From the NCBI GenBank assembly GCA_030685215.1, contig JAUXQB010000053.1, forward strand, positions 1 to 35,527: a DNA stretch of 35,527 bases. Direction: 5' to 3'. Shown in pieces: positions 13,818-24,269 of the stretch. Made by a program: the position numbers and the translations under genes. The first letter of the stretch is position 1, and each line of letters starts with the position of its first letter. Below the pieces are notes generated by a model. That model searched no databases, had not been told where the DNA came from, and saw only the letters and a program-made list of their open reading frames with translations. The DNA comes from Actinomycetota bacterium. GTDB lineage: Bacteria; Actinomycetota; Acidimicrobiia; Acidimicrobiales; Ilumatobacteraceae.

Positions 13818-14315
13818 ATGCGTCAGCGGCTGTTCGGCTTCCCCAACCCGGTCAACGAGACATCGGCCCGCCTGGTCGCCACGGGCGCGCTGCTGCAGGC
13901 GCTCGCGTTCCTCGTGTTCCGCCAGTGGTGGCTGCTCGTGCCGCTCGCCTACGGCTTCCTCGCGCGGGTGCTCAGCGGGCCTCGGTTCAGCCCGCTCGGC
14001 CAGTTCGTCACCCGCGTGCTCACCCCACGCGTCCACACCGAGCACCGCTTCGTCGCCGGCCCGCCGAAGCGCTTCGCACAGGGCGTCGGCCTCGGTTTCA
14101 GCGGCGGCGCGCTCGTCGCGTGGGCGCTCGGTGCGCACAGCGTCAGCTACGCGCTCATCTCGTTCCTGGCCATTGCGGCCACGCTCGAAGCCGTGTTCGC
14201 GTTCTGCCTCGGCTGTGCCGTGTTCAACCGGCTGATGCGCCTCGGGATCATTCCCGCCGACGTGTGTGCCGAGTGCAACGACCTCAGCCGCCGCCTCGTG
14301 GGGGCCAGTTCGTGA
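13818..14315 (+). CDS. DUF4395 integral membrane protein
   Basis: 165 aa. Four predicted membrane segments lie in pairs (about residues 20-38, 39-55, 95-115, 118-140). FGFPNPVNETSARLVA at the N-terminus and FCLGCAVFNRLMRLGI near the C-terminus match DUF4395; the CxxC in the last helix is the family hallmark and suggests a thiol or metal role. Function unknown; related proteins are often near thioredoxin-like or sulfur-transfer genes, which are not seen here. ATG at 13818 is chosen over an upstream in-frame GTG because the TACGAT box ends 6 nt before it. The last 32 nt overlap the 3' end of convergent mftF. Confidence 0.85.
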   Translation: MRQRLFGFPNPVNETSARLVATGALLQALAFLVFRQWWLLVPLAYGFLARVLSGPRFSPLGQFVTRVLTPRVHTEHRFVAGPPKRFAQGVGLGFSGGALVAWALGAHSVSYALISFLAIAATLEAVFAFCLGCAVFNRLMRLGIIPADVCAECNDLSRRLVGASS

Positions 14316-15684
14316 ACTCAGGTGTCAGCGGGCCGGCGTTCCGTTCGGCCAGCACGCCCGCCCACACGCCCGCGCCGTAGGCCATCTGGTCCAGCGTCGC
14401 GAGCGGCGCATCGGTCAGCGGCCGCGTGCTGTGTGAGCGTGCGGCGTCGTACAGGGCCGGCCCGATCAGCGCTGCCAGCACGGGAAGCCGCGCTCGTCGC
14501 AGCAGCATCGCGGCGGGCAGCGCGACCGGCCACCACACACGGGTGACGGCGCTCGCGAACTGGCGACCGGCAGCGATGTGCCCGAGCCCGGCCAACCGCG
14601 CCGACTCCGACGGCGGCAGGTCGTGCAGCTTGCGCACCAGAGCGGCAGTGGTGCCCACCGCGACGCCGCCGGCGAGCAGCGGCCGCCGCATCGCGAGCAG
14701 CAGCCACGTGGCAGCGCTCCAGCCACTCATCCGCACCGGCGCGAGCGCACCGGGGTGCCGCGCGGCCAGCGGTGCCGCCGACCGGCCGTACCCGAACCGC
14801 TGGCGCAGCATCGCGAGCAGCGTGGGCCGCGCACGATGGTGCACCACCGACTCGGGTTCGTAGCGGCAGCGGTGGCCGCCGTCGGCGAGTCGCCACACCA
14901 GGTCGACGTCCTCGCCGAAGCGCAGCGAGTCGACGAACCCGCCGACCTCGCGCATCACCTCGACCCGGCACACCAGCGCCGCCGCGGGCACGTAGCTCAC
15001 CCGCGTGCCGGCCGCCACTCGCGCCGGTTCCGGCCCCAGATCGAGCGGGCTGTGACGCTCCTCGTACTCGGCCACCCGCCCGTCGCCGGGAAGCCCGACG
15101 ACCCGCGGCGCGACCAGCGCCACCAGCGGGTCGGCGAAGTGCGCGAGCAGCGGCTCCAGCCAGCCCGGCGACAGCACCACGTCGGTGTCGACGAACGCGA
15201 CGAGCGGCGAGGCGACTTCCGCCAACCCAGTGTTGCGCGCGGCCCCAGGTCCCTGGTTCGTCTCATGGCGCAACAGCGAGAAGCACGGTGGGACCATGAC
15301 ATGAAACGAGATCGGAGTGGGGGAGGCGTCGTCGACGACGATCACTGCGCCCAGGCGTGCGGCCCCGGGCGCACTGAGCTGCTCGACGAGCTGCTGCACC
15401 AGCTGCTCGGGCACGTCGCCGTACGCGGGCACCACCACCGTCACGTCAGCCGCTGTGAACGGCCCTGCTGAGTACACCGGATGGAGCGCGCCTGCGGCCA
15501 CGAAGCGGTCGAACAGTTGGTGGATGGCCGCCGTGTCGGGTGCCTCGCCGTGCTCGAGCATCGCGGTGACCTGCGCACCGCCGGTGGACAGCCGGAACAG
15601 GCGCAGCGGCGACCCGGCCACGAGCACCTGACCGTCTCCCGGGCGGCGCCACGACGAGTCGAGGCGGTAGCGCACTGCGGCCAC
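14284..15684 (-). CDS. mftF: Mycofactocin biosynthesis glycosyltransferase MftF
   Basis: 466 aa. Residues 1-80 form a small N-terminal domain (YRLDSSWRRP, VLVAGSPLRLFRLS) typical of MftF, resembling a PqqD-like peptide-binding unit (inference). Residues 81-300 are a GT-A family 2 glycosyltransferase: VTVVVPAYGD, VIVVDDASPT, the metal-binding DTD (166-168, VAFVDTDVV), and the acidic FGEDVDLVWR (257-265). Hydrophobic C-terminal segments suggest membrane association. MftF adds glucose units to the premycofactocin head group to give oligoglycosylated mycofactocin. The GTG start directly follows the TGA of mftE with no gap, and mftE-mftF is the canonical gene order. It is the last gene of the operon. 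Confidence 0.9.
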   Translation of the reverse strand: MAAVRYRLDSSWRRPGDGQVLVAGSPLRLFRLSTGGAQVTAMLEHGEAPDTAAIHQLFDRFVAAGALHPVYSAGPFTAADVTVVVPAYGDVPEQLVQQLVEQLSAPGAARLGAVIVVDDASPTPISFHVMVPPCFSLLRHETNQGPGAARNTGLAEVASPLVAFVDTDVVLSPGWLEPLLAHFADPLVALVAPRVVGLPGDGRVAEYEERHSPLDLGPEPARVAAGTRVSYVPAAALVCRVEVMREVGGFVDSLRFGEDVDLVWRLADGGHRCRYEPESVVHHRARPTLLAMLRQRFGYGRSAAPLAARHPGALAPVRMSGWSAATWLLLAMRRPLLAGGVAVGTTAALVRKLHDLPPSESARLAGLGHIAAGRQFASAVTRVWWPVALPAAMLLRRARLPVLAALIGPALYDAARSHSTRPLTDAPLATLDQMAYGAGVWAGVLAERNAGPLTPEFTNWPPRGGG

Positions 15685-16371
15685 TCAGTCCCACCACTCG
15701 TCGACAGCGGCGACGAGATCGATGCTGAGATGGGTGAACAGCGTGCGCCCGTGCGACTCGTTGGCCTGACGCGGGTCGCCGAGGATGCCGTTGGGGCTGA
15801 CGGCGCGCACGCCACCTTCGATCATCTCGTCGATGAGGTCGGCGAGCGGCTCGGTGTTGCCACGCTCGACCCGGTGCATGCGCACGAGGTCGGGCGCGAT
15901 GGCCAGCATCAGCGAGGTCTCGGTGTACCCCGCGTGAGCGTCGCCGTCCTTCACCCGCGGCCACCACGCCAGCACCTTGCGCTGCTCACTGCGCAGCAGC
16001 CGCACCGCGCGTTCCACCGGCACGCGGTTGCCGCCATGGCCGTTCACCAGCACCACCCCGGCGCTCCAGTCGGCGCTGCGCACGAGCTCGACGATGATCT
16101 GCTCGAACACCTCCGCACCCACCGAGAGCGTGCCCGGGAACGATGCGTGCTCGCCGCTCGACGAGATGGTGAGCGGCGGTGCGACGAGCAGGTCGCCCTC
16201 ATCGAACTTCTGTGCCAGCCCGTCGGCGAGCGCGCTGGCGATGCGGGTGTCGGTGTCGAGCGGGAGGTGCGGCCCGTGCTGTTCGCAGGCGCCGACGGGC
16301 ACGATGAGCAGCGGGCGTCGCGTGGGCTTCCAGTGGTCGGTCCAGGTGGTGCGCCCGAGGAACCGCGTCAT
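15685..16371 (-). CDS. mftE: Mycofactocin maturation peptidase MftE (creatininase family)
   Basis: 228 aa, the usual family size. Metal-ligand motifs of the creatininase fold are all present: PVGACEQHGPHLPLDTDTRI (Glu30, His32, Asp39/41), SGEHASFPGTLSVG, VNGHGGNRVPVE (His112) and HAGYTETSLML (Glu151). The EQHGPHLPLDTD and GEHxxFxGT combination is characteristic of MftE, not of creatinine amidohydrolase. MftE cleaves the MftC-modified MftA peptide to release the C-terminal Val-Tyr-derived core that becomes the redox cofactor. The ATG overlaps the stop of the beta-propeller gene (ATGA), and mftF follows with zero spacing. mftA, B, C and D are not in this window, so the substrate peptide must be encoded elsewhere. 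Confidence 0.9.
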   Translation of the reverse strand: MTRFLGRTTWTDHWKPTRRPLLIVPVGACEQHGPHLPLDTDTRIASALADGLAQKFDEGDLLVAPPLTISSSGEHASFPGTLSVGAEVFEQIIVELVRSADWSAGVVLVNGHGGNRVPVERAVRLLRSEQRKVLAWWPRVKDGDAHAGYTETSLMLAIAPDLVRMHRVERGNTEPLADLIDEMIEGGVRAVSPNGILGDPRQANESHGRTLFTHLSIDLVAAVDEWWD

Positions 16372-17972
16372 CCCGGTGTGCCGAGGCAGTAGACGTAGCC
16401 GGCGCGAGTGCCCACGTAGATGCGGCCCTCCCACACGACCGGCGTGCTCTCGATGTTGGCATCGAGCGTGACCGACCACAGCTCGGTGGGCGCCGTGCGC
16501 GGCGACGACACGTCGTAGGCGTGCACGGTGCCGTTGCCATCGGCCTGGATGAGCACACCGTCGACCACCGACGGCGAGCTGAGCACCGGCGCGGCGACAC
16601 TGAGCTTCCACAGGATCTCGCCCGTCGTGCGGTCGACGCCGTACACCTTGCCCGGCTTCGTGTTCCAGATGACCACGTCGTCGAGCACGATCGGCGCGGC
16701 CCACGTGCCGCTGCCCTCGCCGTTGTTCACGTCGATGCTCCACACCACCGGGTCGTCCGGGTTGCGCGGGTCGAGCTTCAGCAGTTGACCCGTGGCCTGG
16801 GCGCGCGAGTTGTTGCGATCCACCTCGGCACCCACGAACAGGAAGCCTTCGTCGTCGGGCACGATGGTGGCGTCGCTGTCGTCGCCGGTCCAGAAGCGGA
16901 ACGTGCGCTGCACGTCGCCCTGACCGGTGCGCAACGACGAGATGTCCCAGCCCTGCACCAATCCACCCGACGAGTTCAGCCACGCGGTGTCGCCACTGAC
17001 GGCCACCGAGGCCTCCAGGCTGACGCGGTTCGGATCCTTCGAACCGAGGTCGTCGATCAGCTGCTGGTCCCAGCCCGGCACACGGAACGTGAGTGCCGGG
17101 TCGACGGTGACGGTGCCGTCGGCGGCATATCCGCGGTTGAGCTTGATGCCGTAGAACCAGCTGTTCTCGCCGCCCTCGAGGAGGTGGTCGTTGAGCACCA
17201 GCGGCGCGGCGTCCCAGTCGTCGTTGTGCTTGCGATCGTCGGTGCGACCGTTGATCTTCCACAGCTCGCGCGGCTCGGAGCCGTCGAATGCGATGACGCG
17301 CAGGTAGTTGTCGCGCGAGCCGACGTAGACGAGCGGGAACCCGTCGGGGTCGACGGTGACGTTGCCCTTCGCGAGGTCGCCGGTCTCGAAGGGCGGGATG
17401 ATGTCGAGCCCGGTGGCGGCGTCGACGAAGTGCACCTTCCAGTCGTACGCACCGAACACCACCCAGGTGCGGCCGTCGCGCTCGAACACCGCGGGTTGAC
17501 CGGTCCAGCCGGTGCCGCACCAGATGCGCACGTTGCCGTACTCGCTGCTCTCGCCGCACATCGGGTTGCCCTTGCCCGGGTACTGCCACAGCACCTGCGG
17601 CTGCGACCTGGGCACCGGGCCACTGCCGTAGTAGCTGCGCGTGGGGTTGCCGCGGAAGGTGAGCACGCCCGGCACGTCGGTGCTGTACGGCCGTCCGAAC
17701 GACTCGGGGTCGACCAGCACGTCGGTGCGCGCGACGAAGGGCGCGGCGGTCGTGGTGGTGCTGCCGGCAGGTGCGGTGGGCGCGGGGCTGCTGGCGTCGG
17801 TGCCCTCGGTGTTGGCGGCGGTGGTGTCGCTGCCGTTCACCTCGCCGACGGGCGACATGCGCTCGGTGGTCTCGTCGTCGCTCGACGCGAGATCGAAGAG
17901 CAACCCGACGAGCAGCGCGACCACGGCGACGGCGGCCACGAACACCGTGCCGCGGCGAGCGAAGTAGCTCAC
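16368..17972 (-). CDS. Membrane-anchored PQQ-like beta-propeller protein in the mft operon
   Basis: 534 aa from GTG. Residues 9-27 are an uncleaved-looking signal anchor (VFVAAVAVVALLVGLLF). Residues 45-85 are a Thr/Ala/Ser linker. Residues 90-534 are WD/PQQ-type blades rich in YVGxxxxYxY-like strands (e.g. TPVVWEGRIYVGTRAGYVYC, VVFGAYDWKVHFVDAATG), so the propeller lies outside the membrane. Cysteines occur in MCGESSEYGNVRIWCG and near the C-terminus. No dehydrogenase active-site motif was recognised. Its GTG overlaps the tetR stop (GTGA) and its stop overlaps the mftE start (ATGA), so it is translated as part of the TetR-mftEF unit. A role in binding or reoxidising mycofactocin, or as a BamB-like scaffold, is inference. 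Confidence 0.82.
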   Translation of the reverse strand: MSYFARRGTVFVAAVAVVALLVGLLFDLASSDDETTERMSPVGEVNGSDTTAANTEGTDASSPAPTAPAGSTTTTAAPFVARTDVLVDPESFGRPYSTDVPGVLTFRGNPTRSYYGSGPVPRSQPQVLWQYPGKGNPMCGESSEYGNVRIWCGTGWTGQPAVFERDGRTWVVFGAYDWKVHFVDAATGLDIIPPFETGDLAKGNVTVDPDGFPLVYVGSRDNYLRVIAFDGSEPRELWKINGRTDDRKHNDDWDAAPLVLNDHLLEGGENSWFYGIKLNRGYAADGTVTVDPALTFRVPGWDQQLIDDLGSKDPNRVSLEASVAVSGDTAWLNSSGGLVQGWDISSLRTGQGDVQRTFRFWTGDDSDATIVPDDEGFLFVGAEVDRNNSRAQATGQLLKLDPRNPDDPVVWSIDVNNGEGSGTWAAPIVLDDVVIWNTKPGKVYGVDRTTGEILWKLSVAAPVLSSPSVVDGVLIQADGNGTVHAYDVSSPRTAPTELWSVTLDANIESTPVVWEGRIYVGTRAGYVYCLGTPG

Positions 17973-18562
17973 GCGGCCAACCCCTGCATCACCGCGAACG
18001 TGGCGTCGTCGAACACGCGCTTCCAGTCGACCGGCGTGTCGGTGACGTGCTTCAACTCCAGGCTGATGACGCCGTGGCACGTGCTCCACACGATGGCAGC
18101 CGCGTGCATCGCCTCCATGCGGCGCAGCTGCCCGGCGTCCATCGCTCGCTGCAGTCGCTCGGCGAGCAGCACGAGCGTGCCCATCGCGGTGTCGAGCGCG
18201 GCGGGCGACGGCTCGTAGTCGGCCACCACCCGGTCGAACATCACGGCGTAGAGCGTGGGGTGCGCGACCGCGAACTCGCGGTAGGCGGTGCCGCAGCGGC
18301 TGAGGTCGAGCATCGGGTCGTCGGTCTCGTCGATGCTGCGCATGCCCTCGCCGAGCAGCTCGAAGCCCTGCACGAACAGCTGCTCGACCACGCCGTCCTT
18401 GCCGCCGAAACGGGAGTACACGTTCATCGTGCTCACCCCGGCGTCGGCCGCGATGCGGCGCACGGTGAGCGCGGCCGGACCCTCCAGCGCGAGCAGCCGG
18501 TCGGCCGCGTGCAACAACGCCACGCCCACCTCGTCGAGGCTGTTGGCGGTGGCGGCGCTCAC
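17969..18562 (-). CDS. TetR/AcrR family transcriptional regulator with WHG-type C-terminal domain
   Basis: 197 aa from GTG. The N-terminal helix-turn-helix is at about residues 27-60 (LTVRRIAADAGVSTMNVYSRFGGKDGVVEQLF). The C-terminal ligand domain includes WSTCHGVISLEL, the W-x3-HG signature of WHG-type TetR proteins. These usually repress their own operon and release on binding a small ligand. It does not look like MftR, the known mycofactocin-cluster TetR regulator. As the first gene of an overlapping operon with the propeller, mftE and mftF, it is the probable regulator of that unit. The GTG is supported by TAGGTT ending 6 nt upstream. Confidence 0.9.
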   Translation of the reverse strand: MSAATANSLDEVGVALLHAADRLLALEGPAALTVRRIAADAGVSTMNVYSRFGGKDGVVEQLFVQGFELLGEGMRSIDETDDPMLDLSRCGTAYREFAVAHPTLYAVMFDRVVADYEPSPAALDTAMGTLVLLAERLQRAMDAGQLRRMEAMHAAAIVWSTCHGVISLELKHVTDTPVDWKRVFDDATFAVMQGLAA

Positions 18563-18702: not shown

Positions 18703-19503
18703 TCAGAGGTAGCCCCACTCGTGGAGCGCGGCGGCGATGCGGGCCGCGGCGGCGGCGGGCTCGAGGGTCACCGTGTCGCCGCGGGCGGCCACCGCCGCGC
18801 CCGAGTCGGTGAGGGCTCGCAGGCGATCGAGCGGCGTGTCGCCGACCGGGGCCGCGAGCGCCCGAGCGCGCGGGCGGTAGGCGCGCACGACCGCGTCGTC
18901 GGCGTGCGCCGTGGCCGCCGGATGGACGGTTCGGACCTCTGCGTGCGCCGCCGTGCGCAATGCGCTCAACCCGGCGCGGCGGAGGTGAGCGGTGGCGCCT
19001 TCGACGCTCACGACCGCCGGCGGGGAGACGCCGAGCAGCTCGCGGCGACCGCCGTCGAGGCGACGAGTCGCCACCAGACCGTCGCCCTGCCAGTGCACGG
19101 CGATGATGCCAAGCGCCTGTTGCGCACCCAGCCTCGCGGCGAGGAACGCGGGCACGCTGCCGGTGCCGCGATCCAGCGAGTAGTCGCCGCACCACACCCA
19201 TCGGGCGTCGGGCACCGCCTCCGCGATCGCGTCGGCCACGTGTGCGCTGTGCATGGCGCCGTGCACCGGCACGTGCACCGCGTGCGTGGCTCCGCACGCG
19301 AGCGCCTCGCGCAGCACCTTCTCGGCCGCGGGTGGCCCGACGGTGACGGCGGTGACGGTGGTGCCCAGCGCGGCGGCCTGCACCAGCGCGAACTCGAGTG
19401 CCGAACGATCTGCCGGGCTGATGCCCGCGAAGCGCTCGTCGTGCGGTTCGCCGGGGTGGCTGACCCACTTCAGGCAGGCAACGACATCGGACGGCAGGCT
19501 CAT
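18703..19503 (-). CDS. fixA: Electron transfer flavoprotein beta subunit, FixA-type
   Basis: 266 aa. ETF-beta features: VACLKWVSHP opening strand, SALEFALVQAAALGTTVTAVTVGP, EALACGATHAVHV, and CGDYSLDRGTGSVPAFLAARLG, the nucleotide-binding segment. Together with FixB it holds FAD and passes electrons from dehydrogenases to FixC. It is the last gene of fixB-fixC-fixX-fixA, starting 10 nt after the fixX stop. It carries ALAAPVGDTPLDRLRALT near the C-terminus, the region where ETF-beta docks on partners. From memory, ETF subunits of a distinct 'mycofactocin-associated' class exist in databases; the neighbouring mftEF operon makes this protein a candidate, but I could not check. Confidence 0.88.
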   Translation of the reverse strand: MSLPSDVVACLKWVSHPGEPHDERFAGISPADRSALEFALVQAAALGTTVTAVTVGPPAAEKVLREALACGATHAVHVPVHGAMHSAHVADAIAEAVPDARWVWCGDYSLDRGTGSVPAFLAARLGAQQALGIIAVHWQGDGLVATRRLDGGRRELLGVSPPAVVSVEGATAHLRRAGLSALRTAAHAEVRTVHPAATAHADDAVVRAYRPRARALAAPVGDTPLDRLRALTDSGAAVAARGDTVTLEPAAAAARIAAALHEWGYL

Positions 19504-19513
19504 GTCGTGGCGC

Positions 19514-19864
19514 TCACGTACGCCGGAAGACGACACCATGGCCGCCCTCGGGGTAGTTCCAGCTGATCGCGCCTTCCTTGTTGCACACCAGGTAGCAGGT
19601 GCCGCACTCGAAGCACTGCTCGTGGTTGAACACGAGGCCGCCGTCGCTGGTGGGCACGAACAGGTTGGCCGGGCAGGCGACGATGCACTCGCGAGTGCTG
19701 CAGCCCTCGCACACGGAGCCGTCGACCACGATGTGCGCCTGGTGGTGGATGCGGAACTCGGCGGTGGCCATGCGCTCCTGGAACGAGAGGCCACCCCAGG
19801 CGGCGGGGGCGAGGATCTCGGCCGGGTGCGCGCTCACGTGCTCGGCGGGGTTGACGGTGCTCAT
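19514..19864 (-). CDS. fixX: Ferredoxin-like protein FixX
   Basis: 116 aa. Eight cysteines form two ferredoxin motifs: Cys52-x2-Cys55-x4-Cys60-x3-Cys64 (VCEGCSTRECIVACP) and Cys84-x2-Cys87-x2-Cys90-x3-Cys94 (CFECGTCYLVCNKEG). They are followed by the FixX hallmark SWNYPEGGHGVVFR. FixX is the iron-sulfur partner of FixC, equivalent to the C-terminal Fe-S domain of ETF-quinone oxidoreductase. The ~40-residue N-terminal extension before FRIHHQAHIVVDG is longer than in rhizobial FixX. The ATG overlaps the fixC stop (ATGA), which fixes the start and indicates translational coupling. Confidence 0.93.
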   Translation of the reverse strand: MSTVNPAEHVSAHPAEILAPAAWGGLSFQERMATAEFRIHHQAHIVVDGSVCEGCSTRECIVACPANLFVPTSDGGLVFNHEQCFECGTCYLVCNKEGAISWNYPEGGHGVVFRRT

Positions 19865-21174
19865 CCGAAGCTCCTGAACCCGGTCCAGCCGTCGCGCAAC
19901 AGGTCGCGCCGGCGCACGCCGGCACGCTTGCGCTCCTGCGCCAGGATGCGGCGCACTCCCGGCTTCGGATTCGGATTGTCGACTCGGAACATGCGCTCGA
20001 CGACGTTGGCCACCATCGTCGGGTAGAGGTGCTGCACGCGATCGCTGAGTACGAGCTCGGGCGCACGGCGCAGCTTGCGGTGGTCCTTCAGCACGAACGT
20101 GTCGCTGAGCCGGCGCTGGTAGTCGGCCAGCCCGGTGGCGGTGGTGTCGCCGCCGGCGATGGCCTCCACCGCGGTCTCGCCCGCGTACATGCCGCTGGCC
20201 ATCGCGAAGTTGACCCCCTCCAGCCAGATGCCGGCCGCGAGGCACAGCGCCGCAGCGTCGCCCGCGACGAGCATGCCGGCGGTGGTCATCTTCGGCATCA
20301 TCTTCAACCCGGCCTCGGGGATGAGGTGCGCGCTGTACTCCTTCAGCTCGCCGTCCTGCACCAACGGCGCGATGGCGGGGTGCTGCTTCAGGGCGGCGAT
20401 GATCTGCTCCGGCCGCTGCTGCTGGGCGCCGAGCTTGGTGATCTTCAGCACCACTCCGACCGCGATGGTCTCCAGGTTCGTGTAGATGAACCCGCCGCCG
20501 TTCACGCCACCGGTGGCACCGATGATCTCGATGTCGACGCCGTCGCGACCACGCACGCCGAAGCGCTCGTCGATGACCTCCTTCGGCAGCGCCAGGGTCT
20601 CCTTCACACCGAGGGTGAAGTGCTTGGCGTCGGTGTGCTCGTAGAGGCCGGCCTCCTTGGCGAGGAAGCTGTTGACGCCATCGCAGGCGATGACGACTCG
20701 CGCGGTGAGGTCGCCGTCGGGTCGGTCGGTGCGCACGCCGATGACCGCGCCCTGCGCGTCGCGGATGAGCCCGGTGACCGTGGTGCTGGTGATGATCTGC
20801 GCACCCGCGGCCTCGGCATGGCCGGCGAGCCAGTGGTCGAAGTCGGGCCGGTAGGCGGTGGCGCCGTTGTGCGGCGGCTTGCCCCACGCCTCGCTGCGGA
20901 AGTCGACGGTGAGCGCCTGTGTGTCGGTGAGCAGCATCGTGCTGCGCCGCGTGACCCAGCGCTGGACGGGCGCCTCCAGCCACCACTCGGGAATGAGCTG
21001 GTCGAGGATGCGCGGGTAGACCACACCGCCGTACATGTTCTTGCTGCCCGGGAACGGACCGCGCTCGAGCAGCACCACCGACAGGCCGGCGCGAGCCGCC
21101 ACCAATGCGGCGCACGCACCCGCCGGGCCGCCGCCGACGACGATCACGTCGACATCGGTGGTGCTGGCGCTCAT
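19861..21174 (-). CDS. fixC: FAD-dependent ETF-quinone oxidoreductase FixC
   Basis: 437 aa. The Rossmann FAD motif VIVVGGGPAGACAA is at residues 10-23. FPGSKNMYGGVVYPRIL is the FixC/ETF-QO signature, and AGMLVAGDAAALC (the GD motif binding the FAD ribityl) lies near residue 305. IWLEGVNFAMASGMYAGETAVEA matches the quinone-binding half. It accepts electrons from the FixAB flavoprotein and passes them with FixX to quinone, or to ferredoxin in bifurcating systems. Its start overlaps the fixB stop and its stop overlaps the fixX start, both as ATGA. Confidence 0.94.
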   Translation of the reverse strand: MSASTTDVDVIVVGGGPAGACAALVAARAGLSVVLLERGPFPGSKNMYGGVVYPRILDQLIPEWWLEAPVQRWVTRRSTMLLTDTQALTVDFRSEAWGKPPHNGATAYRPDFDHWLAGHAEAAGAQIITSTTVTGLIRDAQGAVIGVRTDRPDGDLTARVVIACDGVNSFLAKEAGLYEHTDAKHFTLGVKETLALPKEVIDERFGVRGRDGVDIEIIGATGGVNGGGFIYTNLETIAVGVVLKITKLGAQQQRPEQIIAALKQHPAIAPLVQDGELKEYSAHLIPEAGLKMMPKMTTAGMLVAGDAAALCLAAGIWLEGVNFAMASGMYAGETAVEAIAGGDTTATGLADYQRRLSDTFVLKDHRKLRRAPELVLSDRVQHLYPTMVANVVERMFRVDNPNPKPGVRRILAQERKRAGVRRRDLLRDGWTGFRSFG

Positions 21175-22091
21175 GTCGCGCCGCCCGCGAGTAGTGCCTC
21201 GAGTGCGTCGAGCGTCTCGTTCGCATCGGCCACGATGGCCAGGTCGGCCAGCTGCATCATCGGGCAGTGCTGGTCGGTGTTGACCGAGATGATGTGATCG
21301 GGGTTGCCCAGGCCGCTGGTGTGCTGCACCGCGCCGCTCACGCCGAACGCGAGGTAGAGCTGCGGGTTCACCACCACGCCGGTGGTGCCGATCTGGCGCT
21401 CGTGCGGCACCCACCCACGGTCGGTGATGACGCGGGTGGCGCCGGTGCTCGCGCCGAGCTGCGTGGCCACGCGGTCGAGCTGCGCGATGCGCTCGCGACC
21501 GTCGAGACCGGCGCCGCCGCCGACGATGCGCGGTGCTTCCGACAGGTCGATGGTGGCGGGGTCGGGCGGTTGCACCTCGAGCACGGTGGCATCGCGGTCG
21601 TGATGGTGCACGGCTGCCGGCACGTCGTGGTGCGCCCGTACCGCCGGCGCGCCCAGCGTGGGTTCGGGCGCCACGCCACGCACCCCGGGCTGCAGCGTGG
21701 CGACGAAGTGCTCGCTCGGGGTCACCGTGTGCAGCTCACGTCCGCCGTTGCGGGCGAGGTCGATGCGCTGCGACCCCACCTCGGTGGCGCCGGCATGGAG
21801 CGGCCGGTGCAGCAGCGCGGCGAGCCGCGGCGCGAGGTCGCGGCCGTCGGGCGAACCGGGCAGCACGATGGCGGGTTCGGCAGCCAGCAGCGGTGCGAGC
21901 CTGGCGGCCCACGCCGCGGGCTGGAACGCACCCAGCTCGACGGTGACGACATCGATGGCCACACCCTGTAGCTCGTCGATCGCGGCGGCGAGGCCGCTGC
22001 CGACGAGCACGGCGCGGCCGTGGCACTCGGCCACTGCTTCCGCTCCGCCTGCGGGCAGCTGCCCGTCGCGCACCACCACCACAGCGATCAT
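21171..22091 (-). CDS. fixB: Electron transfer flavoprotein alpha subunit, FixB-type
   Basis: 306 aa. The N-terminal half (IAVVVVRDGQLPAGGAEAVAEC) is the ETF alpha/beta fold domain. The C-terminal half is the FAD-binding domain with IVGGGAGLDGRERI, then QIGTTGVVVNPQLYLAFGVS, GAVQHTSGLGNPDHIISVN and FAD-contacting residues before ADLAIVADANETL. It is shorter than typical FixB (about 330-370 aa) but complete at both ends. It is the first gene of the fixBCXA operon. The ATG is preceded by TAATCT (22099-22104) ending 7 nt upstream, so a leaderless transcript is likely. The promoter lies next to the large inverted repeat. Confidence 0.92.
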   Translation of the reverse strand: MIAVVVVRDGQLPAGGAEAVAECHGRAVLVGSGLAAAIDELQGVAIDVVTVELGAFQPAAWAARLAPLLAAEPAIVLPGSPDGRDLAPRLAALLHRPLHAGATEVGSQRIDLARNGGRELHTVTPSEHFVATLQPGVRGVAPEPTLGAPAVRAHHDVPAAVHHHDRDATVLEVQPPDPATIDLSEAPRIVGGGAGLDGRERIAQLDRVATQLGASTGATRVITDRGWVPHERQIGTTGVVVNPQLYLAFGVSGAVQHTSGLGNPDHIISVNTDQHCPMMQLADLAIVADANETLDALEALLAGGAT

Positions 22092-22316: not shown

Positions 22317-24269
22317 ATGGTCGCCATCGATTCGCCGCTCACCCGCGTGGTGCACACCGCGTGCACCCTCGACTGCCCCGACGCGTGTTCGCTGGCCGTC
22401 ACCATCACCACCGTCGGCGATGTGGAACGCATCACCGACATCGACGCCGCACCCGAGAACCCGCTCACCGACGGGTGGATCTGCGCGAAGGTGAAGCGGC
22501 ACGCCGATCGCGTCTACGCCCCGGAGCGCGTGCTCACGCCGCTGGTCCGCACCGGCGAGAAGGGCGCCGGCGAGTTCCGTGCCGCCACCTGGACCGAAGC
22601 GCTCGACCTCGTCGCGCAGCGCATGCGGCAGGCCATCGACGCCAAGGGTCCCGACTCGGTGGTCGCGTTCACCTACAACTCGTCGGCGGCGGTGCTCGAA
22701 CGTAACAGCCTCACCGAGGCGTTCTTCGCCGCCATCGGAGCCAGCGTCGCCGAGCACACCATCTGCGCCCACACGATGGGTGTCTCGTGGGACTCCGTGT
22801 TCCCGGCCATGGCGTCGGCCGACCCCACCACCGTGGTGCACAGCCGGCTCGTGGTCATCTGGGGCGCCAACCCGACGGTCAGCAACACGCACTTCCCACC
22901 GCTCGTGCAGCAGGCCGTGAAGGCCGGCGCCAAGGTGGTGGTCATCGACCCGCGTCGCACCGCGATGGCCAAGCGCGCGCACCTGCACCTCGCAGTACGG
23001 CCGGGCACCGATGCCGTGCTCGCGTACGCCGTCGCCAACCTCTGGGCGCAGCGGGGCCACCTGGCCGCCGACTTCGTGGCCGCGCACGCCGACGGCGCCG
23101 AAGAGTTCATGTCTGCGGCGGCGGAGTGGACGCTCGATCGCGCCGCCGCGGAGACCGGCCTCGCGGCGGTCGACATCGAGCTGCTCGCCGAGTGGTGGGG
23201 CACCACCCGACCGGCGATGTTGCGCATCGGCTGGGGACAGGAACGCAACGCGAACGGCGGAGCCGCGTGCCGAGCGATCCTCGCGTTGCCGGTGCTCGGC
23301 GGGCACTTCGGTGTGCCCGGCAGCGGCGTCATCGGCTCCACGTCGGCAGGCGCCGCGAAGCCACGCGCGCGTTGGCCGAAGGAGGCGTTCGACGGCCCAC
23401 AGCGACGTGTGCTCCCCATGCACCAGGTGAGCCGGTGGATGGCCCCGGGCTCGTCGGATCCGTGCGAGGTGCTGTTCGTCCAGGGAGCCAACCCGCTGGT
23501 GATGTGCCCCGATCAGCACGCCGTGGTCGCGGCGTTCAGCCGGCCCGACGTGTTCACCGTGGTGCACGAACAGGTGCTCACCGACACCACTCGCTACGCC
23601 GATGTCGTGCTGCCGGCCACCACCAGCTTCGAGATCGACGACGTCACCTCCAGCTACGGCTCGCTGATGGTGATGCCCGTGCGCAGTGTCATCCCGCGCG
23701 TGGGGGAGAGCCGCTCGAACGACGAGACCGGCCTGGCCTTGGCGCAGGCGTACGGCTTCGCGTGGAATCCGGTCGCGATGGCGGTCGCGGTCGCCGACCC
23801 GGGTCCCCGTGAGTCGCAGGCACCGTCGCAGCAGTTCGTCGACACCTTTCCCGAGGGTGGCCGCGCGCAGCTCGTCGACGCCGCGCACGGCGCGCCGCGC
23901 TACGTGGCGTTGCCGCACGCGGCCGATGCGCTCACGCTCATCTCGCCGGCCACCTCGAAGCTGGTCAACTCGATGTTCGGCGAGTTCCAGAGCCCGTCGC
24001 CGGCCGTGCTGATGCATCCTGCCGACGCGGCAGAGCGCGGTCTCGTCGCCGGTCAGCAGGTGGTGGTCGCCAGTCCGCTGGCCGCCATCACCGTGCCGCT
24101 CGCGGTCGGTGCCGACACTCGGCCGGGCGTGGCGGTGATGAGCAAGGGCGTCTGGTTGCGCAACCACGGCGACGGGTGGGGCGTCAACGCGCTCACGCCC
24201 GCCACTGGCGACGCGCTCGCCAACGGTGCCTGCTTCAACGACACCTTCGTGACGGTCACCCCCGCCTGA
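22317..24269 (+). CDS. Molybdopterin-dependent oxidoreductase (bis-MGD family) with N-terminal [4Fe-4S] site
   Basis: 650 aa. The N-terminus has the iron-sulfur motif Cys16-x3-Cys20-x3-Cys24...Cys56 (TACTLDCPDACS and GWICAKVKR). It is followed by the Mo/W-bis-MGD catalytic domain: VVIWGANPTVSNTHFP, VVVIDPRRTAMAKRAHLHL, RIGWGQERNANGG, LFVQGANPLVMCPD and DTTRYADVVLPATTSFEID. The C-terminal cofactor-binding domain (MHPADAAERGLVAGQQVVV) is complete. No Tat signal is present, so it is cytoplasmic. Substrate unknown; it resembles formate dehydrogenase/thiosulfate-reductase-like actinobacterial members. A weak TAGACC box (22305-22310) ends 6 nt before the ATG. It diverges from fixBCXA, so it could share that electron-transfer pathway (inference). 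Confidence 0.92.
   Translation: MVAIDSPLTRVVHTACTLDCPDACSLAVTITTVGDVERITDIDAAPENPLTDGWICAKVKRHADRVYAPERVLTPLVRTGEKGAGEFRAATWTEALDLVAQRMRQAIDAKGPDSVVAFTYNSSAAVLERNSLTEAFFAAIGASVAEHTICAHTMGVSWDSVFPAMASADPTTVVHSRLVVIWGANPTVSNTHFPPLVQQAVKAGAKVVVIDPRRTAMAKRAHLHLAVRPGTDAVLAYAVANLWAQRGHLAADFVAAHADGAEEFMSAAAEWTLDRAAAETGLAAVDIELLAEWWGTTRPAMLRIGWGQERNANGGAACRAILALPVLGGHFGVPGSGVIGSTSAGAAKPRARWPKEAFDGPQRRVLPMHQVSRWMAPGSSDPCEVLFVQGANPLVMCPDQHAVVAAFSRPDVFTVVHEQVLTDTTRYADVVLPATTSFEIDDVTSSYGSLMVMPVRSVIPRVGESRSNDETGLALAQAYGFAWNPVAMAVAVADPGPRESQAPSQQFVDTFPEGGRAQLVDAAHGAPRYVALPHAADALTLISPATSKLVNSMFGEFQSPSPAVLMHPADAAERGLVAGQQVVVASPLAAITVPLAVGADTRPGVAVMSKGVWLRNHGDGWGVNALTPATGDALANGACFNDTFVTVTPA

Follow-up and report, generated by a model that had tools for sequence, protein, structure and literature searches.

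A split mycofactocin locus in an Ilumatobacteraceae genome and an OYE-ETF-FixCX gene set that appears to replace MftD

The window analyzed here is one entire contig of 35,527 bases (C36; JAUXQB010000053.1) from a 4.32-Mb Ilumatobacteraceae draft genome (GCA_030685215.1; 92% complete, 3.7% contamination). It carries mftE and mftF, the late genes of the mycofactocin pathway, and a preliminary description of it found no mftA, mftB, mftC, or mftD, which raises the question of where, and by which enzymes, the other steps are encoded. MftD makes the redox center of mycofactocin, hence the weight of its absence: according to PMC7491314, it converts AHDP to PMFT by deamination, and M. smegmatis lacking mftD builds up AHDP and produces no mycofactocin. 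It was placed in most, but not all, species by Haft in 2011 (PMC3023750). We consider it likely, at a probability of about 0.7, that one or two OYE-type flavoenzymes together with the electron transfer flavoprotein (ETF) EtfAB and FixCX replace MftD in a split, MftD-independent locus, by a chemistry that we infer. The window appears to be the distal half of that locus, and its genes etfA, fixC, fixX, and etfB appear to belong to the replacement.

Early and late genes on separate contigs

The genes mftA, mftB, and mftC are located on another contig of the same genome, C241, where MftA (50.7 bits; cut-off, 25), MftB (93.3 bits; cut-off, 33), and MftC (624 bits; cut-off, 265) all exceed their model thresholds. 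Alongside them are genes for a PlsY acyltransferase and an OYE-type enzyme (OYE1; TIGR03996, 731 bits; cut-off, 627.9), and two NDMA-dependent alcohol dehydrogenases are encoded on the other flank of mftA. The contiguity of mftABCDEF is thus broken in this genome, with the early genes on C241 and the late genes on C36. In the window itself, tblastn gave no match to MftB and MftC from the same genome or to MftD from a relative, and a profile search of the whole 92% complete assembly did not find MftD either (top match, 31.6 bits; cut-off, 470.85). A second complete mftA-F cluster was not seen in the genome: MftA had one match, MftC and MftF had one each at an E value of ≤1e-50, and the only other MftE-like match (137 bits) was under the cut-off. 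The split locus proposed in the preliminary description therefore stands, and so does its placing of the early steps elsewhere as far as mftA, mftB, and mftC are concerned; for mftD this placing was not borne out, the gene being found neither in the genome nor in the genus.

We rejected an assembly artifact as the source of the split. Where relatives have long contigs, the distance from mftC to mftE is at least ∼87 kb (G004) or at least ∼170 kb (G022), with the two halves on long separate contigs. The two genes are likewise far apart in G025 and G032, two MftD-type genomes among the three that consist of a single contig; the third, G050, keeps them together, at a distance of 3 kb. Because of these distances an artifact is unlikely, and the split appears to be biological. 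Genes for PlsY and a DedA-type membrane protein recur close to mft genes in both MftD-type and cassette-type loci, and the skeleton mftB-mftC-PlsY-DedA-mftF is the same with the cassette described below and without it (L097, L107, and L204 versus L148, L149, and L152).

MftD and the OYE-ETF cassette in related genomes

Profile searches for MftC, MftD, MftE, MftF, mft_etfA, OYE_1, and MftG were run on 120 relatives from the order. MftC exceeded the cut-off in 73 of them, among which 25 had MftD, 44 had mft_etfA, and none had both over the cut-off (Fisher P = 1e-15, uncorrected for kinship). The four MftC genomes with neither were read individually, and all resolve at contig ends: cassette genes run into a contig end in G007 and G070, etfA is divided over two contig ends in G037, and an MftD fragment of 370 bits lies at a contig end in G044. 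The 73 MftC-positive genomes then comprise 26 with MftD and 47 with the cassette, leaving none with both and none with neither. Three more genomes have etfA and no MftC match (G010, G012, and G018; 94, 78, and 77% complete). OYE_1 behaved in the same way, with MftD over the cut-off in 0 of the 41 relatives in which OYE_1 exceeded its own.

A search of 53 more genomes with mft_etfA, including Amycolatopsis alkalitolerans, gave no MftD score over the cut-off; by hand comparison of coordinates, 45 of these genomes are distinct and new. In the phylum as a whole, few genomes have mft_etfA (8 of 396 drawn), and a parallel search of 27 phylum genomes lacking it found MftD in 1. Two ways in which MftD might have been overlooked were considered. 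Its loss in the unassembled part of the genome is thought unlikely, as no MftD score exceeded the cut-off in any of the 15 members of the genus (63 to 99% complete). A distant LldD-like protein acting as a hidden MftD was rejected on the score of 31.6 bits that tops the list in the source genome. LldD-like proteins of about 200 to 310 bits, short of the 470.85 required, do occur in some cassette genomes, and such proteins are found in some MftD-type genomes besides MftD itself.

The composition of the cassette is best seen where the locus is contiguous. Eighteen of 80 named etfA loci show mftC on the same stretch as etfA, in every case with OYE1 and OYE2 between the two genes; 17 loci have the complete order mftC-OYE1-OYE2-etfA-fixC-fixX-etfB plus mftF on one stretch. 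In the 68 loci showing etfB, the next marker after it is mftE (42 loci), TetR or the propeller gene (10), mftF (4), a short-chain dehydrogenase/reductase (SDR) gene (3), or none (9). In unsplit operons, those of Streptomyces included, the cassette occupies the mftD slot.

The same alternation is found on plasmids, for which the results cover the plasmid stretches read. Of 12 plasmid records with mftC, 8 have the cassette without mftD and 4 have mftD without the cassette (Streptomyces NBC_00080, Mycolicibacterium chubuense, Tsukamurella, and Thermomicrobium roseum). The cassette plasmids are six from Streptomyces, two of them near copies of each other, and two from haloarchaea; five of the six Streptomyces records are annotated, and that of S. 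lavendulae was read by tblastn. On both haloarchaeal plasmids, mftA and mftC are accompanied by mftE or a creatininase gene, and the stretch shows no mftD. They have a single OYE2-like gene (625 and 615 bits, under the cut-off of 793) and homologues of etfA-fixC-fixX-etfB, the ETF ones under the mft cut-offs. On the Streptomyces SAT1 plasmid (L215:12209-14169), the OYE2 gene lacks an annotation and gives two overlapping partial matches, perhaps because it is broken or contains a sequencing error.

To place the two states on a phylogeny, the cassette state was labeled as MftD absent and each such row was checked by eye; loci L090, L092, L097, and L107 were read by tblastn, while L084, L085, and L091 are only in the tblastn set and support no statement. 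In a carefully built MftC tree with 57 rows, the state changes at least 11 times, at least 6 of the changes being forced by well supported branches, and independent pairs are opposite in 6 of 6 cases (P = 0.031). Since the two states change repeatedly on this tree, a single old split is unlikely as the origin of the exclusion.

Could the cassette instead stand in for MftG? Like MftG in mycobacteria, it would then re-oxidize mycofactocinol and pass the electrons to the respiratory chain, and an unlinked enzyme would deaminate AHDP. EtfAB-FixCX would offer a natural path to quinone, MftG is missing from about 25% of MftC genomes, where another enzyme may take over (PMC11778925), and mftG is present in 2 of the 4 MftD-type plasmid loci and in 0 of the 7 annotated cassette-type ones in the stretch read. 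The two in question, L210 and L219, carry mftR and mftG. The distribution in the order runs the other way. With the main model, TIGR03970, used here in place of the two narrower MftG models, MftG exceeds the cut-off in just 1 of the 120 genomes, which is itself a cassette genome without MftD (G027:C31:24354-25847); MftD-type relatives, too, are without MftG by TIGR03970 and yet have no cassette, so that the cassette excludes MftD and not MftG. On these counts we rejected the cassette as an MftG replacement and regard this explanation as unlikely.

The flavoenzymes and a proposed route to the cofactor

Both OYE1 and OYE2 contain the FMN barrel and nucleotide-binding region of FadH, HADH, and TMADH, and the Oxidored_FMN domain was matched in both OYE proteins scanned. 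The first nucleotide fold is present in all OYE rows, and the GxGxx[GA] motif of the second fold is missing from 42 of 43 OYE1 and 59 of 59 OYE2 rows. A full set of four Fe-S cysteines is retained by 36 of 43 OYE1 and 59 of 59 OYE2 rows. Most rows thus combine an FMN barrel, 4Fe-4S cysteines, and the first fold with the lack of the second motif. These features define the ETF-linked amine dehydrogenases of the OYE type (TMADH, HADH, and Pno), and in FadH the second nucleotide motif is needed for NAD(P)H. The OYE1 genes that have lost cysteines (L134, L135, L139, L159, L184, L194, and L195) all lie in loci that also carry OYE2, and a division of labor between the two enzymes is possible from their sequences.

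In the route that we propose, MftA, MftB, and MftC, encoded on C241, would make the cyclized precursor, from which MftE would release AHDP. An OYE-type FMN/4Fe-4S flavoenzyme would then oxidatively deaminate AHDP to the redox-active keto-amide PMFT, normally the step of MftD. This enzyme would be the OYE1 encoded beside mftC in the source genome, and OYE1 plus OYE2 in many relatives. The electrons would exit via EtfAB and then FixC-FixX to the quinone pool, O2 not being the acceptor, and MftF would glycosylate. The genes, their families, their position in the mftD slot of relatives, and the mutual exclusion with MftD among the genomes examined are observed; that AHDP is the substrate, that electrons flow in this order to quinone, and that O2 is not required are what we infer. 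The cassette would be a second, probably oxygen-independent route to the cofactor.

The same intermediate is expected in both groups because the C-terminal end of MftA, SIDGMCGVY, is identical in 54 of 54 MftA genes listed (14 from MftD-type and 40 from cassette-type loci), a comparison in which the search pattern itself demanded CGVY. AHDP is the presumed common intermediate, and cassette lineages might instead convert it into a chemically different final cofactor, with the OYE and ETF proteins carrying out that chemistry; OYE enzymes usually reduce C=C bonds, and the nearest solved relatives by sequence are FadH and naphthoyl-CoA reductase (NCR). Matches to NDMA-dependent alcohol dehydrogenases and mycofactocin-coupled SDRs lie near mft genes in both groups, however, and S. 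erythraea, from a genus with mftD-less TIGR03997 clusters, is stated to make a methylated mycofactocin (PMC11162802). We therefore hold a different end product to be quite improbable.

Several observations weigh against the replacement of MftD by the OYE-ETF-FixCX set. By sequence, FadH or NCR outscores the amine dehydrogenases for OYE1 and OYE2, and by fold, compared for OYE1, FadH comes out on top, closely followed by HADH and NCR. The OYE1 structure model is only fair (pLDDT, 75.7; pTM, 0.74) and supports the fold shared by FadH, HADH, NCR, and TMADH, giving no choice between a reductase and an amine dehydrogenase. The amine-oxidizing, ETF-reducing activity of the mycofactocin enzymes is putative, and one to three Fe-S cysteines are lost in 7 of 43 OYE1 proteins. 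FixC and FixX may be the two halves of an ETF:quinone oxidoreductase, by weak matches: FixC reaches 20.3 bits against ETFQO_UQ-bd and FixX 20.4 bits against Fer4_ETF_QO, both under the gathering score. OYE_1, over the cut-off in 38 of the 47 genomes with etfA and partial or lower scoring in 6, had no match at an E value of ≤1e-110 in the other 3 (G012, G018, and G031), and OYE2 was not seen in the genus of the window by a search that could not exclude it. A quicker MftC tree (58 rows) forced just 2 switches, and the pair test is modest at its P value of 0.031. Finally, two flavoenzymes, an ETF, and an ETF:quinone oxidoreductase pair would be much machinery for a single biosynthetic oxidation.

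The gene block in the window

From position 22091, the genes on the same strand are called in the order etfA-fixC-fixX-etfB, followed after a gap of 140 bases by TetR-propeller-mftE-mftF (Table 1). The preliminary description had delimited the last four genes correctly, and the block extends beyond them, further upstream to etfA. Its assignment of mftE and mftF holds, both proteins clearing the cut-offs of their models, as do the overlaps it listed: GTGA between TetR and propeller, ATGA between propeller and mftE, and TGA then GTG between mftE and mftF. A further overlap, of 4 bases, joins etfA and fixC. EtfA and EtfB both exceed the curated cut-offs of the NCBIfam mycofactocin-associated ETF models (mft_etfA and mft_etfB), and the closest named loci by EtfA are from Acidimicrobiaceae and Ilumatobacteraceae metagenome assemblies. 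The propeller protein has a hydrophobic N-terminal stretch, a putative membrane anchor as judged from the protein sequence. Divergent from etfA and upstream of it is a molybdopterin oxidoreductase gene (22317-24269) whose cluster has members in just 4 called loci.

Table 1. Genes of the mycofactocin block in the window
Feature	Coordinates	Strand	Evidence
etfA (mycofactocin-associated ETF alpha, FixB-like)	21171..22091	-	NF038209, 376.8 bits (cut-off 240); ETF_alpha Pfam, 98.8 bits
fixC-like FAD oxidoreductase, proposed ETF:quinone oxidoreductase half	19861..21174	-	PRK10015, 355.7 bits; FixC, 322.3 bits; each under its own cut-off
fixX-like 4Fe-4S ferredoxin	19514..19864	-	Fer4_9, 33.6 bits (over gathering score); FixX model, 45.9 bits (under cut-off)
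etfB (mycofactocin-associated ETF beta, FixA-like)	18703..19503	-	TIGR04503, 214.4 bits (cut-off 200)
TetR-family regulator, optional insertion	17969..18562	-	TetR_N, 44.0 bits; TetR_C_33, 64.1 bits; synteny
BamB/PQQ_2-like beta-propeller protein, optional insertion	16368..17972	-	PQQ_2, 44.9 bits (over gathering score); synteny
mftE, creatininase-family peptidase	15685..16371	-	TIGR03964, 279.5 bits (cut-off 172)
mftF, glycosyltransferase	14284..15684	-	TIGR03965, 392.9 bits (cut-off 280)

It had further been suggested that the late steps of the split locus are under separate, ligand-responsive TetR control. TetR does overlap the propeller gene, which in turn overlaps mftE, and the TetR-propeller pair recurs in 5 (G000, G002, G007, G008, and G014) of the 13 genus members, out of 15, whose mftE neighborhood was read. 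One or both of the two genes are missing in 7 of the 13, with the propeller gene alone in G003, TetR alone in G005, and neither in 5 (G001, G004, G006, G011, and G013), while the contig of G009 stops inside the propeller gene. Because TetR adjoins a divergent MFS efflux gene in four other genomes (G002, G008, G014, and G027), it seems to be a regulator of efflux that was inserted here, and the TetR of the window may be the orphaned regulator of such an MFS gene. Inverted repeats and a motif search gave no shared TetR operator, and promoter and terminator scans found no more than in shuffled sequences. Neither a conserved tetR-propeller pair near mftE-mftF nor an independently regulated four-gene unit was thus borne out among the relatives, and separate TetR control seems very improbable. 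The MFS gene beside the TetR homologue (L057, L063, L071, and L095) is LfrA-like in the one tested (L057, from G002).

Relation to known systems

As in the canonical mftABCDEF locus of mycobacteria, MftA, MftB, MftC, MftE, and MftF are over the curated cut-offs and MftA ends in IDGMCGVY. The present locus differs in that MftD was not found, unsplit relatives having the six-gene OYE1-OYE2-etfA-fixC-fixX-etfB set in its slot, and in that the source genome's locus lies over two contigs with OYE2 not seen (by the search already qualified). Other precedents are the 17 mftD-less Saccharopolyspora clusters described with BGCFlow (NAR, 2024; PMC11162802), which have a TIGR03997 OYE-type gene, its function left unknown, and the same MftA end, and which antiSMASH 6.1.1 called ranthipeptides. 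They come from one genus, and ETF genes, mutual exclusion, and repeated exchange go unmentioned in the part of that paper available to us.

A biochemical precedent is Pno of A. tumefaciens S33, an FMN/4Fe-4S enzyme that deaminates an amine and passes the electrons to EtfAB and then to ETF:ubiquinone oxidoreductase; TMADH is likewise ETF-linked (both from PMC7688666). The Pno-EtfAB-Euo nicotine module, a worked example of the proposed chain, groups an OYE-type FMN/4Fe-4S flavoenzyme with an ETF and an ETF:quinone oxidoreductase, as the cassette would. TMADH, histamine dehydrogenase, and Pno are known amine deaminators, whereas the mycofactocin OYE proteins are not nearest to them by sequence and their activity is putative. 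FixABCX has four homologous subunits, ordered here etfA(B)-fixC-fixX-etfB(A), but the ETF subunits of the cassette belong to mycofactocin-specific families.

NCBI curators already saw the association with mycofactocin, as the names of four families show, and mftD-less genomes were already known. In the literature searched, we found no described MftD replacement, no ETF link, and no account of the MftD/cassette exclusion or exchange, which the 2019 review, the MftD biochemistry paper, and the S. erythraea paper might mention; nor was mycofactocin co-mentioned there with electron transfer flavoprotein, an Acidimicrobi gene cluster, or Ilumatobacter.

The wider proposal, toward which we lean slightly, is that bacteria and archaea have a mycofactocin pathway of a second type, in which OYE-ETF-FixCX would serve in place of MftD, form the keto-amide without O2, send the electrons to quinone, perhaps also re-oxidize the cofactor, and have been exchanged with MftD many times. 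Software that requires mftD to recognize a cluster can assign these loci to the wrong class. If the proposal is true, four families now named "mycofactocin-associated" or "mycofactocin system" would gain a testable role, and the pathway would gain a form able to run without oxygen.

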